DNA of 39,529 nucleotides from the IMG/VR virus record IMGVR_UViG_3300048587_001138, positions 1 through 39,529 of that record; one strand, 5' to 3'. A program made the translations under genes and the position numbers. This DNA is from a virus. Below are positions 1 through 39,529 of the stretch, piece by piece; position 1 is the stretch's first letter; each line of letters starts with the position of its first letter. The notes under the pieces are model-generated. The model was not told where the DNA came from. It searched no databases and saw only the letters and a list, made by a program, of their open reading frames with translations.

Positions 1-1041
1 CGAGCGATGCACGAAGACGATCTTCTCCGCGGTGCAGCGCTGGCCGTTGAAGCCGAGCGAACCCTTCACGATGGCGGTCGCGGCGGCCTCGAGGTCGGCG
101 TCAGCCAGCACCACGGCGGCGTTCTTCGCTCCGAGCCCGAGGATCTTGTGCAGCGTGATGGGCGTCGGGTGCGCCCGCAGGATGGCGTTCGCAGCGCCCT
201 CGCTACCGATGAAGGCGAGCACGTGCACGACCCCGGTCGGGTTGCCGCTGACGTCCTGCTCCGTCGCCGACATCACCGCGGGGATGACGACGCGCCCATC
301 GCCAGGCAGGAGGCTCACGACGCCCTTCGGGAAGCAGTCGCGGAACGCCTCGAGCAGCACGAGGTTTGCCAGCACCCCGAAGCGCGGCGTCTTCGCGATG
401 ACGACGTTCCCCATCAGCAACGCGGGGATGACGGTCGTGAGGAACTCGTTCACCGGGTAGTTGAAGGGGGCGACGCACAGCACGACGCCCAGGGCCCGGC
501 GGTGCGTGCGCGCGAAGTGCTGCTTGCCCCCGGCGGTGCCGGTCTGCACGCCGAGGTCCTCCGCGCGCAGGCGCTCGAGCTCGACGAGGGTGTTGCGAAT
601 GTAATCGACGCTGCGGGTCACCTCGTCGCGCGCGGAGGGGCGGGCCTTGCCGATCTCCCACATCAGCAGCGTGGCGATCTCCTCGGTCTTCGCCTCGACG
701 GCGGCGGCGAAGCGCTTCACCGCGGCGATGCGCGCCTCGACGTGGGCCGACGGCCACTCCCCTTCCCCGTTGGCCCAGGCCCGCTGCGCGGCGGCGACGG
801 CGAGCCTCGCATCGTCCGCGGAGAGCTGCGCCTCGTGGCCGAGCAGCGTCGTCGAGAGCGTCGAGCCCTCGCGGACCGCGACCCGGGAGCGCACCTCGCG
901 GGTGGGACCGCCGAAGGCGCGGATCTCCCCGTCCACCAGCCAGCGGGCGCCGTGCGCGACCGGACCGACCCGGACCTCCGTGGGCACCGCACCGGCCTCG
1001 GGGAACAGCGGGATGAAGGCGTCGTCGTTCCAGGTGCTCAT
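1..1041 (-). CDS. gapN: NADP-dependent glyceraldehyde-3-phosphate dehydrogenase-like aldehyde dehydrogenase, partial
   Basis: Host gene, cut by the left edge of the window, so only the first 347 residues are present. The reading frame is open from the ATG at 1041 to base 1. It has aldehyde dehydrogenase superfamily signatures: APFNYPVNEF (Rossmann-side motif), FIGSEGAANAI, and near the window edge NGQRCTAEK with the catalytic Cys. The NGQRCTAEK context is typical of non-phosphorylating GapN, which oxidises glyceraldehyde-3-phosphate directly to 3-phosphoglycerate with NADP. Another aldehyde dehydrogenase subfamily cannot be excluded without the C-terminus. The start at 1041 follows an AAGG; an in-frame ATG at 1059 is the alternative. 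The start lies only about 52 bp from attL. Confidence 0.88.
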   Translation of the reverse strand, partial: MSTWNDDAFIPLFPEAGAVPTEVRVGPVAHGARWLVDGEIRAFGGPTREVRSRVAVREGSTLSTTLLGHEAQLSADDARLAVAAAQRAWANGEGEWPSAHVEARIAAVKRFAAAVEAKTEEIATLLMWEIGKARPSARDEVTRSVDYIRNTLVELERLRAEDLGVQTGTAGGKQHFARTHRRALGVVLCVAPFNYPVNEFLTTVIPALLMGNVVIAKTPRFGVLANLVLLEAFRDCFPKGVVSLLPGDGRVVIPAVMSATEQDVSGNPTGVVHVLAFIGSEGAANAILRAHPTPITLHKILGLGAKNAAVVLADADLEAAATAIVKGSLGFNGQRCTAEKIVFVHRS

Positions 1042-1115: not shown

Positions 1116-1235
1116 AAGGGAAACAGGGCGCCGTTGATGGCGATTCGGGCGCGACTGCGGCATCGGTCCCGAGTGAAAACGAGGGTGAAGGTGGGGGCGA
1201 ACCTCCGATAACCGGCGTCGCCGCGCTGGCGCGTG

Positions 1236-1250
1236 GTACCAAAGTACCAA
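1236..1250 (-). promoter_or_regulatory. Left-arm integrase-binding sites (putative)
   Basis: Two GTACCAA heptamers start at 1236 and 1244, about 120 bp inside attL. Their complement TTGGTAC occurs twice on the plus strand near attR (39437, 39449). Paired heptamers on both arms in opposite orientation are the usual layout of tyrosine-integrase arm-type sites. They lie within the displaced int coding segment. Binding is inferred. Confidence 0.5.
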
Positions 1251-1365
1251 GCCCGGGGAGCGCGACCGTCGTGCGGTCGTTGATCGCCCTGGCTCTCGAG
1301 GCCGGCGTCGACGCCGACCACCCGAAGCTGGCCGCGGCCCGCGCCTGGCTCAAAGGGGGCGCCCG

Positions 1366-2496
1366 ATGAGTGCCCTCAAGGCGCCGTTCCCGTGGTTCGG
1401 CGGCAAGAGCCGGGTCGCGCACCTGGTGTGGAACGCCTTCGGTGACGTGCCGAACTACGTCGAGCCCTTCGCGGGAAGTCTGGCGGTCCTGCTCGGCAGG
1501 CCGAGCTCGCCGCGCATCGAGACGGTCAACGACCTCGACTGCTACCTCGCGAACTTCTGGCGTGCCACGCAGCTCGCGCCCGACGAGGTCGCGCGGTGGG
1601 CCGACTGGCCGGTCAACGAGATCGACCTGCACGCCCGTCACCGCTGGCTCGTGGCCCAGGCCGAGTTCCGCGAGCGCATGCGGGGCGACCCCGAGTTCTA
1701 CGACGCCAAGGTCGCGGGATGGTGGGTCTGGGGAATCTGCCAGTGGATCGGCGGGGGCTGGTGCGCGGAGTCGAACTGGAACCCCGAGGTGCGCCGGCCC
1801 GCAGGCGACAAGACCGCGGAGCAGCGGCGGGGCGACCGAACGGCCGCCGAGAACCGGCGCCCTCAGCTCCACAACTCAACCGGGGTCCACAAGCGCGACA
1901 CCCGGGGCGTCTCAGCCAACTGGGGCAAGCGCCCGTCGCTCGGCAAGGGTGCCCGAGGGGTTCAGCGGGCGCCGAGCAACCAGATGCCGATGCTGAGCGG
2001 TGACGCCGGCGCGTCGGGGCTCGGCGGGCACGCGAGCGCCAAGAGCGCCAAGAGCGCCAGCACCGTGTACGACTGGATGCAGCACCTCTCCGACCGCCTG
2101 CGTCGGGTGCGCGTGTGCTGTGGGGACTGGACCCGGGTGCTCGGGCGCTCGAGCACCGAGCTCATCGGCGTGACGGGCGTCTTCCTGGACCCGCCCTACC
2201 TCGCCGACTTTCGCGACCCCTCGCTCTACGGCACCGAGAGCGGCGACGTCGCGCACGCCGTTCGCGAGTGGGCCATCAAGAACGGGAAGAACAAGAAGCT
2301 GCGCATCGCCCTGTGCGGCTACGAGGGCGAGCACGAGATGCCCGGCGACTGGCAGTGCGTCGCGTGGAAGGCGGCCGGTGGCTATGCCGCGGCGGCCGGG
2401 AACACCGAGAACAGCGCGAAGGAGCGCATCTGGTTCAGCCCTCACTGCGCGCGCGCTGAAGACCAGGCCAGCCTCTTCGATCGGAGGATCGCGTGA
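1366..2496 (+). CDS. D12-class (Dam-like) N6-adenine DNA methyltransferase
   Basis: A 376-residue protein with the order of a D12-class adenine methyltransferase: motif X-like PWFGGKS at residues 9-15, SAM-binding motif I EPFAGS at 33-38, and catalytic motif IV DPPY at 275-278. Between motifs I and IV is a long hydrophilic insert (about residues 145-220, rich in Arg, Gly and Lys) that is probably disordered or a recognition insert. It should transfer a methyl group from SAM to adenine N6 in phage DNA, most likely protecting it from host restriction; the target site is unknown. The ATG overlaps the stop of the displaced int 3' end, so on the circular genome it is the gene directly after int. 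Confidence 0.92.
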   Translation: MSALKAPFPWFGGKSRVAHLVWNAFGDVPNYVEPFAGSLAVLLGRPSSPRIETVNDLDCYLANFWRATQLAPDEVARWADWPVNEIDLHARHRWLVAQAEFRERMRGDPEFYDAKVAGWWVWGICQWIGGGWCAESNWNPEVRRPAGDKTAEQRRGDRTAAENRRPQLHNSTGVHKRDTRGVSANWGKRPSLGKGARGVQRAPSNQMPMLSGDAGASGLGGHASAKSAKSASTVYDWMQHLSDRLRRVRVCCGDWTRVLGRSSTELIGVTGVFLDPPYLADFRDPSLYGTESGDVAHAVREWAIKNGKNKKLRIALCGYEGEHEMPGDWQCVAWKAAGGYAAAAGNTENSAKERIWFSPHCARAEDQASLFDRRIA

Positions 2497-4495: not shown

Positions 4496-5625
4496 TCCCC
4501 GTGCAGCTCCAGCCGCACCCCGCAGCCACGCTGTTCCCGATGATGAGCGACGCCGAGCTCGACGACCTGGCGGCCGACATCAGGGCCCATGGCCAGCACC
4601 GCCCCATCATCGTGTGGGAGGGCTCGATCCTCGACGGCCGGAACCGCTTCGAGGCCTGCAAGCGCGCGGGGGTCACGCCCCAGCTCCTGCCCTGGCGCCC
4701 CGGTACCCCGAACGAGTCCCCGACGCAGTGGGTGCTCTCGGAGAACCTGCACCGGCGGCACCTCAGCGTCGACCAGCGGGCGCTCATCGCGCTCGAGGCG
4801 CAGGCGATGTTCCAGGCCGAGGCGAAGGCCCGGCAGCGTGCCGCCGGCGGTGACCGGCGACAGGCGAAGGAGGAGCCCGAGCGGTTACCGCCCCGGGGCG
4901 GTAAGCGGTCCCCCACCTCGGCTGCCCAGGCTGCGACGGCCGCGGGGGTGAGCGCGCGCAGCGTGGAGCGAGCTCGGCGCGTGCAGCTGGCGAAGCCGGA
5001 GATCCTCGAGCAGGTCCGCAAGGGGGAGCTCACCCTGAAGCAGGCCGAGAAGGTGGTCGCCAAGGGGGAGCGCCTCCGGGAGGTGCTCGAGTACCAGCCG
5101 CCCACGGGGAAGTACTCCGTGATCGTCGCGGACCCGCCCTGGCGCTACGACGACACGCTCGATGGCAGCGACCTCGCCCGCGGTGGCCTCGACTACCCGA
5201 CGATGAGCGTCGAGGAGATCTGCGCCATGCGCGTGGGCGAGAACCTCGCCACGAAGGACTGCGCGCTCTGGCTGTGGACCACCAACGCCTTCCTGCTCGA
5301 CGGGTCGGCCGCCCGGGTGGTGCGCGAGTGGGGCTTCGAGGCCAAGGCCCTGCTCACCTGGCGGAAGGACCGCATGGGGGCCGGGCGCTACCTGCGCAAC
5401 CAGACCGAGCACGCGATCCTCGCCATCAAGGGCCGCCCGGTGGTCGCCGGCGAGAGCGTGCCCACGGTCTTCGACGCGCCCCGGCGGGGCCACAGCGTGA
5501 AGCCCGAGGAGGCCTTCACGCTGTTCGAGAAGGTGACGCCGGCAGCTGCCTCGGCCCGGCTCGAGCTCTTCGCGCGCAAGCCGCGGAAGGGCTGGCTGGC
5601 GTCGGGCTCGGAGGTGCGGCGGTGA
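4492..5625 (+). CDS. ParB/Srx nuclease-like domain fused to MT-A70 adenine methyltransferase
   Basis: A 377-residue two-domain protein. Residues 1-110 are a ParB N-terminal-like domain with LDGRNRFEA at 48-56 and ENLHRRHLS near 94-102. A helical ParB-like middle (AAGVSARSVERARRV) follows. From about 205 there is an MT-A70 methyltransferase domain with catalytic DPPW at 214-217 and an RNQTEHAILAIKGRP block near 303-317. It should methylate adenine N6; the ParB-like part probably binds DNA. The linker between the domains (residues 132-141) is encoded by a 28-bp palindromic repeat also found upstream of xis. This is the second adenine methyltransferase of the prophage. Confidence 0.87.
   Translation: MIPVQLQPHPAATLFPMMSDAELDDLAADIRAHGQHRPIIVWEGSILDGRNRFEACKRAGVTPQLLPWRPGTPNESPTQWVLSENLHRRHLSVDQRALIALEAQAMFQAEAKARQRAAGGDRRQAKEEPERLPPRGGKRSPTSAAQAATAAGVSARSVERARRVQLAKPEILEQVRKGELTLKQAEKVVAKGERLREVLEYQPPTGKYSVIVADPPWRYDDTLDGSDLARGGLDYPTMSVEEICAMRVGENLATKDCALWLWTTNAFLLDGSAARVVREWGFEAKALLTWRKDRMGAGRYLRNQTEHAILAIKGRPVVAGESVPTVFDAPRRGHSVKPEEAFTLFEKVTPAAASARLELFARKPRKGWLASGSEVRR
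4885..4912 (-). repeat. 28-bp palindromic repeat, copy A
   Basis: Inverted relative to, and identical over 28 bp with, 37847-37874. The core is TTACCGCCCC-GGGGCGGTAA, flanked here on the right by GCGGTCCC. It sits in frame in the interdomain linker of the ParB/MT-A70 gene, encoding R-L-P-P-R-G-G-K-R-S. It may be a small mobile palindromic element or a protein-binding site. Confidence 0.75.
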
Positions 5626-37356: not shown

Positions 37357-37874
37357 AGCCCGTCACCACCACCGACTGGCGGGCCGCGATGGATGGGCCG
37401 CAGCACTTCTGGACCTGCGACGACACCGCCGAGAGACTCACTCACGACTGCCTCAGCGACGCTGTCGAGGAGTACATCGACGGCCTCTTCGTGCCAGCGC
37501 GCGGCCTCGAGGCGTTCCTCCGGGAGAAGGTCTCGCCTCTCACCATCTTCGGCTACTCGCGCGCCAAGGTGACGGACGAGCGGCTCGCCGACCTCGCCAA
37601 CGACCTCGCGGACCACCTGCAGGAGCGGCTCGATGACGGCTACGACGACTGGAGCGACCCGGACGGGCAGCACCAGGTGATCGACGACACCGGCAAGGCC
37701 GCGCTCGCCGAGCGCTTCTTCGCCGTGCTGCGGGATGAGCGGGCGCACATCGAGCCTTGGGGCTGCGAGGTCACCGCGAAGGTGACGGTCGAGGGCGACG
37801 AGCTCGTCGCGATGGTCCGGGAGCTCTGCCCGTACTGGTTCGAGGAGGGACCGCTTACCGCCCCGGGGCGGTAA
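37353..37874 (+). CDS. Hypothetical acidic protein
   Basis: A 173-residue acidic protein (FWTCDDTAERLTHDCLSDAVEEYIDGL; LDDGYDDWSDPDGQHQVIDDTGKAALAERFF). Not recognised; proteins of this general look occur in phage accessory regions. GTG start overlaps the previous stop. Its last codons and stop (P-L-T-A-P-G-R, TAA at 37872-37874) lie inside palindromic repeat copy B, so the repeat may have changed the original C-terminus. Confidence 0.65.
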   Translation: MKPVTTTDWRAAMDGPQHFWTCDDTAERLTHDCLSDAVEEYIDGLFVPARGLEAFLREKVSPLTIFGYSRAKVTDERLADLANDLADHLQERLDDGYDDWSDPDGQHQVIDDTGKAALAERFFAVLRDERAHIEPWGCEVTAKVTVEGDELVAMVRELCPYWFEEGPLTAPGR

Positions 37875-37876
37875 GC
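37847..37876 (+). repeat. Palindromic repeat copy B, upstream of xis
   Basis: The 28 bp 37847-37874 are identical, inverted, to 4885-4912. Here the central 24 bp (37853-37876) are a perfect palindrome with half-site GCTTACCGCCCC. It ends 16 nt before the xis ATG and supplies the stop codon of the previous gene. It could be an operator controlling xis-int or a small mobile palindrome. Confidence 0.78.
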
Positions 37877-37892
37877 GCTTCGAGGAGGGGTC

Positions 37893-38246
37893 ATGCGCAC
37901 CATCGAGGACACCATCCGCGTCGTCGTTCGCGAGGAGGTTCGCGCCGCCCTCGACGAGGTCCGCAGCGCCCTCGCCGAGCTCCGGCCCGCGCCCGTGCCC
38001 GACACGATGCTCACCGTGGAGCAGGTGGCGCAGCGCGTCGGCGGGGTCTCGCCTGAGACGGTCCGCGACTGGATTCGCCGCGGGAAGCTGGCGGGGCGGC
38101 GCGCGGGGAAGCGGCTCCTCGTGGCCCCGCAGGCGCTCGAGGCCTTCCTCGCGGGCGTGGTCTCCGAAGAGAAGGTCGAGCTGGGCGAAGATGAGCACAT
38201 GGCTTTGTTGATCGATCGCATCGGGAGCAAGCGCCCCGCGCGCTGA
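37893..38246 (+). CDS. xis: Excisionase-type HTH protein
   Basis: A 117-residue protein. After a helical N-terminal 30 residues, MLTVEQVAQRVGGVSPETVRDWIRRGKLAGRRAGKRLLVAPQALEAFLAG (39-88) is a MerR/Xis-like winged HTH (HTH_17). Its place 11 bp upstream of int indicates an excisionase / directionality factor that bends att DNA. GAGGAGGGG precedes the ATG. Another role in regulation of int is possible. Confidence 0.82.
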   Translation: MRTIEDTIRVVVREEVRAALDEVRSALAELRPAPVPDTMLTVEQVAQRVGGVSPETVRDWIRRGKLAGRRAGKRLLVAPQALEAFLAGVVSEEKVELGEDEHMALLIDRIGSKRPAR

Positions 38247-38257
38247 AGGAGACGACC

Positions 38258-39529
38258 ATGGGCAGCGTCTACCCGAAGGGCCGGCGGCTCTACTTCAAGG
38301 TGAAGGTCGACGGCGCGTGGCGGGCCATCCGCACCGAGTACGTCGTCGGCCAGGAGCGCCAGGCCCGGGCGATGCTGGACCGCCTCGAGGAGCGCCGCGC
38401 CGCCGGCATCGAGAGCATCGGCGATCTGGGCCCGCCGACCGTCGCCCGCTTCGCCGACGCATGGATCAAGCAGCGCCAGGCGCACGTGCGCACGTGGAAG
38501 AACGACGACGCGGTGCTCCGGCTGCACGTGCTGCCGAGCCTCGGCGGCCTCCGCCTCGACGAAGTGCGCGCGAAGCACATCGTCGACCTGGTGAAGGGCT
38601 GGCGGTCGAAGCCCGAAGAGGAGCGCCTGGCGCCGAAGTCCATCTACAACGCCTACTCGACGGTGAGCGCCCTCTTCCGCGACGCCGAGCTCGAGGGGCT
38701 CATCGACTCCGACCCCTGCCGCCTGACGAAGCACCAGCTCGGCCCGAAGGTGGACAAGGACCCGGAGTGGCGCCCCACCGCCCTCTTCACGCTCGCCGAG
38801 CTCGAGCTGCTCATCTCCGACGAGCGGGTGTCCATGGATCGCCGGGTGCTCTATGCGCTCGAGGGCATCGCCGGCCTGCGTCACGGCGAGGCCGCCGGGC
38901 TCCTCTGGCGCAACGTGCAGGCCGAGCTCGCGCCGCTGGGGATGATCTACGTGGCCCACAACTACGAGCACCCGCTCCCGAAGGGCGACGTCTGCCGCCC
39001 GGTGCCGGTCCACCCCGCCCTCGCCGCCATCCTCGCCGAGTGGAGGCTCCACGGCTGGGCCCGGATGATGGGCCGCCCGCCACGGCCCGAAGACCTGGTG
39101 CTTCCCCTGCCCCCCGAGGCCTCGAGCACCACGGGGCGGTGGCGCCGGAAGGGGTACTCCTACGACCGGCTCGAGCGGGACCTCGAGACCCTCGGGCTCC
39201 GGCACCGCCGCGGGCACGACCTGCGGCGCACGATGATCAGCCTCTGCCGCTCCTCCGGCGCCGTGGCCGACATCCTGCGCCGCGCCACGCACAAGCCGCC
39301 GAAGGAGGTCATCGAGGGCTACACCACCTTCGAGTGGGCCGTGGTCTGCGCCGAGGTGGCCAAGCACCCGATCCGCCGGCCCTCCGCGGCCGAGGTCATC
39401 ACCCTCCGCCGGGCCGCGAGCGCGAGCGCCGAAAGCTTGGTACCGGCCTTGGTACCGCCTCCCGCAAGCGGCTGGAACATGCCGCCGAAAAGTGTGGCCC
39501 TCCCCGGACTCGAACCGGGATGCCCGTGA
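38258..39529 (+). CDS. int: Tyrosine-family site-specific integrase (attR form)
   Basis: A 423-residue phage integrase: arm-binding N-terminus, SAM-like core-binding domain (about 60-145), and catalytic domain with R208 (AGLRHGE), K242, H320-x-x-R323 (GHDLRRT), H345 and nucleophile Y355 (EGYTTF). GAAGGAG precedes the ATG. Residues 413-419 (VALPGLE) come from the att core; the last four residues and stop come from host tRNA sequence. On the phage circle the same frame runs on to 1369, giving a 503-residue protein. The prophage form therefore has 84 phage residues replaced by 4. The arm-type sites also lie within the coding sequence. Confidence 0.95.
   Translation: MGSVYPKGRRLYFKVKVDGAWRAIRTEYVVGQERQARAMLDRLEERRAAGIESIGDLGPPTVARFADAWIKQRQAHVRTWKNDDAVLRLHVLPSLGGLRLDEVRAKHIVDLVKGWRSKPEEERLAPKSIYNAYSTVSALFRDAELEGLIDSDPCRLTKHQLGPKVDKDPEWRPTALFTLAELELLISDERVSMDRRVLYALEGIAGLRHGEAAGLLWRNVQAELAPLGMIYVAHNYEHPLPKGDVCRPVPVHPALAAILAEWRLHGWARMMGRPPRPEDLVLPLPPEASSTTGRWRRKGYSYDRLERDLETLGLRHRRGHDLRRTMISLCRSSGAVADILRRATHKPPKEVIEGYTTFEWAVVCAEVAKHPIRRPSAAEVITLRRAASASAESLVPALVPPPASGWNMPPKSVALPGLEPGCP
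39437..39456 (+). promoter_or_regulatory. Right-arm integrase-binding sites (putative)
   Basis: TTGGTAC occurs at 39437-39443 and 39449-39455, 12 bp apart, about 40 bp from the att core and within the int reading frame. They face the complementary pair on the left arm (1236-1250). Confidence 0.5.
39494..39515. other. attR core
   Basis: The 22-bp repeat identical to 1094-1115. It covers the discriminator, acceptor 3' strand, 3' T-stem and T-loop of a minus-strand tRNA gene, so the prophage restores the tRNA's 3' end here. Confidence 0.9.
39495..39529 (-). tRNA. 3' part of the target tRNA gene (partial)
   Basis: On the minus strand, T-stem CCCGG (39519-39515), loop TTCGAGT, T-stem CCGGG (39507-39503), acceptor GAGGGCC and discriminator A (39495). 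CCA is not encoded. The anticodon lies beyond the window, so the isoacceptor cannot be named; the matching 5' acceptor strand should read GGCCCTC. Confidence 0.78.

Follow-up and report, generated by a model that had tools for sequence, protein, structure and literature searches.

An Mx8-type integrase gene that spans its own attachment site in a tRNA-Leu prophage, with an integrase C-terminus predicted to change on integration

The window, the whole 39,529-base stretch of an IMG/VR virus record, is a tailed-phage prophage flanked by a host aldehyde dehydrogenase gene on one side and a tRNA 3' end on the other, its gene content including terminase, portal, head protease, major head protein, adaptors and tape measure. 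The aldehyde dehydrogenase gene (1-1041, minus strand; Pfam Aldedh, E 6.9e-53) is cut by the start of the record, and no DNA match placing it beside tRNA-Leu(CAA) was found in the flanks fetched from other genomes. Close to this end resides a gene for a D12-class N6-adenine DNA methyltransferase (1366-2496, plus strand), which would follow int directly in the circular phage. The opposite end is taken up by int itself (38,258-39,529, plus strand), encoding in its prophage form a tyrosine integrase of 423 aa, matched by a PHROG integrase family (E 2.9e-29) and by Pfam Phage_int_SAM_3. The catalytic residues R208, K242, H320, R323, H345 and Y355 were located by alignment, at invariant columns. 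Directly upstream of int lies a HTH_17/MerR-like gene (37,893-38,246, plus strand; Pfam HTH_17, E 3.5e-11), which also matches PHROG excisionase and regulator families (E 1.5e-8), and occupies the position held in the annotation of Myxococcus phage Mx8 by uoi, a candidate excisionase. Two near-identical palindromes (CCGCTTACCGCCCCGGGGCGGTAAGCGG-like) are found 33 kb apart, at 4880-4912 and at 37,847-37,879, the second directly upstream of the HTH and int genes; both look like copies of a candidate shared operator site.

The ends of the prophage are marked by a 22-bp direct repeat, GTGGCCCTCCCCGGACTCGAAC, present at 1094-1115 (attL) and 39,494-39,515 (attR), both on the plus strand, no third copy being found in the record. 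The right copy is antisense to the 3' end of tRNA-Leu(CAA). The last 36 bases of the record correspond to the 3' part of this tRNA in seven genomes, four of the seven matches being exact, and the body of the tRNA falls outside the record. The int gene does not stop before the core, as an ordinary tRNA-targeting integrase gene would, but traverses it in frame, reading VALPGLE, just as the original prediction had it. The start of the host DNA beyond the core (39,516-39,529; tRNA-Leu(CAA) on the minus strand, within the 36-nt match) encodes the residues PGCP and the stop codon, so that the 423-aa protein ends in KSVALPGLEPGCP and its stop codon closes the record. When the phage-side flanks of the two cores are joined in silico, the frame continues for 84 codons 3' of the core (1116-1369, plus strand), the first of them spanning the junction, and encodes a 503-aa Int ending in ARAWLKGGAR. 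The TGA closing the joined gene (1367-1369) overlaps the ATG (1366) of the methyltransferase gene. Insertion swaps the last 84 amino acids of Int for four encoded by the host; all catalytic residues precede the core and are kept in both forms, linker and tail alone differing. The lengths of the two forms, the tRNA-derived end of the shorter and the position of the distal stop had all been called from the sequence, and are right.

The DNA surrounding the core has the features of an attachment site. Two direct arm-type repeats, CTTGGTACC, lie left of the core and inside int (39,436-39,444 and 39,448-39,456, plus strand), and inverted copies of them (GGTACCAAAGTACCAAG; 1235-1251, minus strand) lie right of the core, inside the sequence coding for the tail. 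In the attP layout, two 8-9 bp repeats in direct orientation stand 11-13 bp apart on the left, and inverted copies lie on the right. Of 15 attP sites, 9 contain exact 8-mer pairs, where shuffled sequences would yield 0.33. Left and right arms of one element match each other in 8 of 15 sites, those of different elements in 16 of 210 comparisons. Since arms match their own partner, and their letters vary among elements as the layout stays constant, the DNA on the two sides of the core makes up one site, as the join requires.

The open frame seen on joining is weak evidence if taken alone, because a random start in the window prophage is open for at least 84 codons with P 0.525, and the case thus rests on comparison. 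Significance drawn from the single open frame of the window was rejected on this account, P being about 0.5 in GC-rich prophage DNA, and the stop/start overlap was set aside as evidence of coding, such overlaps being common in GC-rich DNA. Twelve elements for which both core copies were found, the window included, were rejoined (cores of 21-31 bp, elements of 8.7 to 53 kb). The Int frame is open for 74-118 codons in all 12, the other two frames mostly for 3-55. Tails are homologous within subgroups, as those of G069C1, G071C44 and the experimentally defined Mx8 (E 1e-38 to 1e-7), or those of G102C1 and G117C9 (E 1e-20), and their dN/dS values, 0.48-0.77, are below one, denoting a constraint weaker than in the catalytic part. 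The tRNA-Asp core is read in frame 2 in Mx8 and G069C1, in frame 1 in G071C44, and yet the tails of G069C1 and G071C44 are 61% identical. Frame changes before and after this core must therefore have compensated each other, a history which would be hard to explain if the tail were unimportant. The comparisons demonstrate, at the level of sequence, that tails in the family are kept in frame, and that those of one subgroup share homology and are constrained as protein.

Mx8, which had been named as the precedent, is the sole match to the window Int in a collection of 50,697 phage records (38% identity), and its record has a misc_recomb feature (2387-2415) annotated inside intP. A closer relative resides in an uncultured Archangium MAG, where a prophage-form Int 56% identical to that of the window ends in TVALPGLEPGCP inside tRNA-Leu(CAA); it finishes VALPGLEPGCP, and belongs to an independent prophage in the same state as that of the window. 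Another contig of the same MAG (L017) carries a decayed Int whose frame crosses the same core, identical at 21 of 22 bases, and goes on into a homologous tail ending in GSTVANALSELLKLARELGADEAHPAMAQAVALLGAGYRV. Along 45 aa the window and L017 tails share 44% of residues (E 0.002, 19 tails being compared), a modest match as sequence similarity goes. With L017, one record thus contains the predicted phage-form gene uninterrupted by integration, if in a decayed copy; the expectation that a tail contiguous with VALPGLE would be found in the databases was borne out to this extent, in a single DNA record and not in an intact gene. The only exact match to the core in viral contigs, L184, is a phage-borne tRNA-Leu, unrelated.

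Relatives of the window Int were detected by profile search in 45 of 145 genomes of the order. Of the 22 Ints with a tRNA called at the 3' end, 20 enter or cross it in antisense, the exceptions being G038C112 and G138C56, in which Int stops before the tRNA. Eleven anticodons are hit: Leu CAA and GAG, Lys TTT and CTT, Glu, Asp, Val, SeC, Gly, Gln and Arg. Two elements, G015C1b and G018C35, are integrated in a selenocysteine tRNA gene. Long tails are found in 13 of about 17 distinct viral contigs in which the Int frame continues without reaching an edge (Mx8, L003, L007, L009-L012, L189, L192, L194, L196, L197 and L199). Homologous Ints do not, then, all end near residue 400, the outcome which would have told against the original prediction. 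Ints at contig edges (L187, L191, L193) have tRNA-derived ends. The tail is absent in about four contigs, tail-less viral integrases being L200, L204, L205, L206 and L208, which end right after the catalytic domain; such relatives and the two Ints stopping before the tRNA indicate that the arrangement can be lost. The module with attP in int is found also in small elements, below the length of a typical tailed phage: G083C39 (8.7 kb), G040C128 (9.3 kb), G040C6 (10.0 kb), G014C1, G015C1a and G015C1b (11.6-12.8 kb), and G025C1 (15.6 kb). In two of these elements of 9-16 kb, some of the genes were searched against Pfam, with matches to a serine resolvase, to HTH genes and to a DNA polymerase of viral type, but none to capsid or terminase.

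Other integrases of 14 genomes bearing the family served as controls, 12 of them having strong PF00589 scores and lying beside an antisense tRNA. Eleven of the 12 stop 5-93 nt before the tRNA, and one overlaps it by 8 nt; Int ends before the tRNA in 11/12 controls versus 2/22 members of the window-type family. In a phylogenetic tree a single clade, supported at 100%, unites the window Int with Mx8 and their relatives to the exclusion of the controls, read-through labels of contigs with no called tRNA being based solely on a T-arm-like end or the long tail. In the same genomes, the int genes of a second clade of weaker integrases (L174, L179-L181, L183) also run into tRNAs, possibly a separate, independent origin of the arrangement. 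Besides its place in the clade, the window Int has an in-frame core 3' of the catalytic tyrosine, a longer C-terminus in the circular form, arm repeats within int to either side of the core, a core corresponding to a tRNA 3' end, and a uoi-like HTH gene upstream. The comparative evidence, namely the L017 read-through, the extension of all 12 rejoined elements, the clade shared with Mx8, the frame shift around the tRNA-Asp core and the controls, assigns the window Int to the Mx8-type integrases.

At 13 of 40 loci, int contains a hairpin with an A-run shortly ahead of the core, compared with 12 of 2400 random windows. The A-run is a T-run on the minus strand, and the structure is antisense and resembles an intrinsic terminator. 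Loci of this kind include Mx8 (L005, about 2345-2385), G069C1, G071C44, G025C1, G020C343, G138C2, G026C32 and others. As predicted terminators, these hairpins would end the host tRNA transcript, and spare int from antisense read-in. No terminator-like antisense hairpin was found before the core in the window int.

Taken as a whole, the data are best explained by a temperate phage, integrated in tRNA-Leu(CAA), which carries an Mx8-type module with attP in the 3' part of int and an Int tail depending on the state of the element; we put the probability of this reading at roughly 0.85. The host of the phage is probably a myxobacterium. In the circular form, int encodes a 503-aa Int made up of the catalytic domain, an attP-encoded linker and a C-terminal tail, and the full-length enzyme, made after infection, would favour attP x attB recombination. 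Integration would strip the tail, leaving a weaker 423-aa enzyme and a stabilised prophage, and would also separate int from the methyltransferase gene next to it in the circle. Excision, aided by the upstream HTH gene, a candidate excisionase, would restore the full int gene. The 503-aa form may be made by the window phage, and the 423-aa form may be less active and the lysogen thereby stabilised. In Mx8, a C-terminus of 112 residues gives way on integration to one of 13, and the resulting enzyme has lower activity, according to the passages on this phage in PMC4701971; a modified specificity of the prophage-form Int is mentioned in a passage of PMC6070905. The AlphaFold model of the L003 Int has a confident core, a disordered linker (372-478) which holds the att core, and two C-terminal helices of low confidence.

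A broader reading also seems rather probable, in which the self-exchanged integrase C-terminus is a conserved design of a large clade of Myxococcota phages and small elements, using at least ten tRNA genes, the tail being under selection as a removable, integration-sensing regulatory domain. In this reading the tail, a disordered, attP-encoded linker plus C-terminal helices, would be kept in frame by selection while core, arms and core frame change. The extent of the family, the small elements and the antisense terminators in int go beyond the literature found, the coverage of which is partial, and no priority is claimed for them.

Integration might matter mainly because it cuts int from the early genes, switching their expression, with the C-terminal swap as a by-product. 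The tail stop overlaps or abuts the following start in the window (ATGA) and in several rejoined elements, in agreement with this view, but contacts of this sort arise often by chance in GC-rich DNA, the tails are conserved as protein within subgroups, and altered Int activity is described in the portion of PMC4701971 dealing with Mx8; we regard the explanation as unlikely. A little less likely still is that attP drifted into the 3' end of int and the tail is tolerated, the swap having no regulatory effect. A few tail-less relatives would fit such neutrality, as would the low-confidence placement of the tail outside the folded core by AlphaFold; against it stand the long tails kept in a diverse clade, the frame compensation, and the lower activity of the Mx8 prophage form reported in that same portion of PMC4701971. 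That the frame 3' of the core is open by chance in GC-rich DNA, Int of the circular phage having no functional tail, is very improbable. An equally long open frame does follow a random start in the window prophage with P about 0.5, yet extension in 12/12 rejoined elements, homologous tails with dN/dS below 1, compensation of the frame around the core, and long tails in contigs where the frame is uninterrupted are not accounted for. Least probable of all is a suicidal integrase of the SSV kind, destroyed on integration and needing a second copy for excision, since, for all that the att site is inside int, the whole catalytic domain is kept in the prophage form, R208, R323, H345 and Y355 included, and the SSV-type split falls ahead of that domain (PMC8371274).

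In the preferred reading, an Mx8-type module with a state-dependent Int tail, a recombinase that rewrites its own gene would constitute a self-resetting, heritable switch, the protein reporting the integrated state. Self-altering integrases are described as very few, Mx8 being the example (PMC4701971). Dozens of natural variants, differing in tRNA target, arm sites and tail, now open the function of the tail to comparison and experiment. Read-through of the integration site explains myxobacterial integrase frames ending in tRNA-derived residues, such as RRRESNPRP or GLEPVASG, and calls for caution, as Int sequences derived from prophages lack the form that acts in integration.

The closest known system is Mx8 Int/IntX (Tojo 1996 and Magrini 1999, as cited in parts of PMC4701971 and PMC6070905). 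Mx8 and the window share attP in the 3' part of int with flanking arm repeats, a core antisense to a tRNA 3' end, a tail lost on integration and an HTH gene just upstream, and belong to the same clade. They differ in that the Ints are 38% identical, arm sequence and tail are not the same, a methyltransferase gene directly follows the window int, and the target in the window is tRNA-Leu CAA, whereas the Mx8 core is the tRNA-Asp core of its relatives. The integrase of Myxococcus phage Mx9 (Julien 2003) follows a similar integration principle, according to a passage of PMC6070905. Archaeal SSV-type integrases also have the att site inside the integrase gene and target tRNAs, but in them the split lies before the catalytic domain (PMC8371274) and destroys the enzyme, whereas the window exchanges the C-terminal tail only. 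Streptococcal ICEs in rumA resemble the window in having attR in the integrase gene and different C-termini in the excised and integrated forms (PMC4701971). Their enzyme is however a serine recombinase, and neither protein nor target is related to those of the window Int. In mycobacteriophage BPs the gene bearing attP is that of the repressor, not int. There too attP lies inside a coding gene and integration alters a regulatory protein, as stated in a section of PMC4557955.
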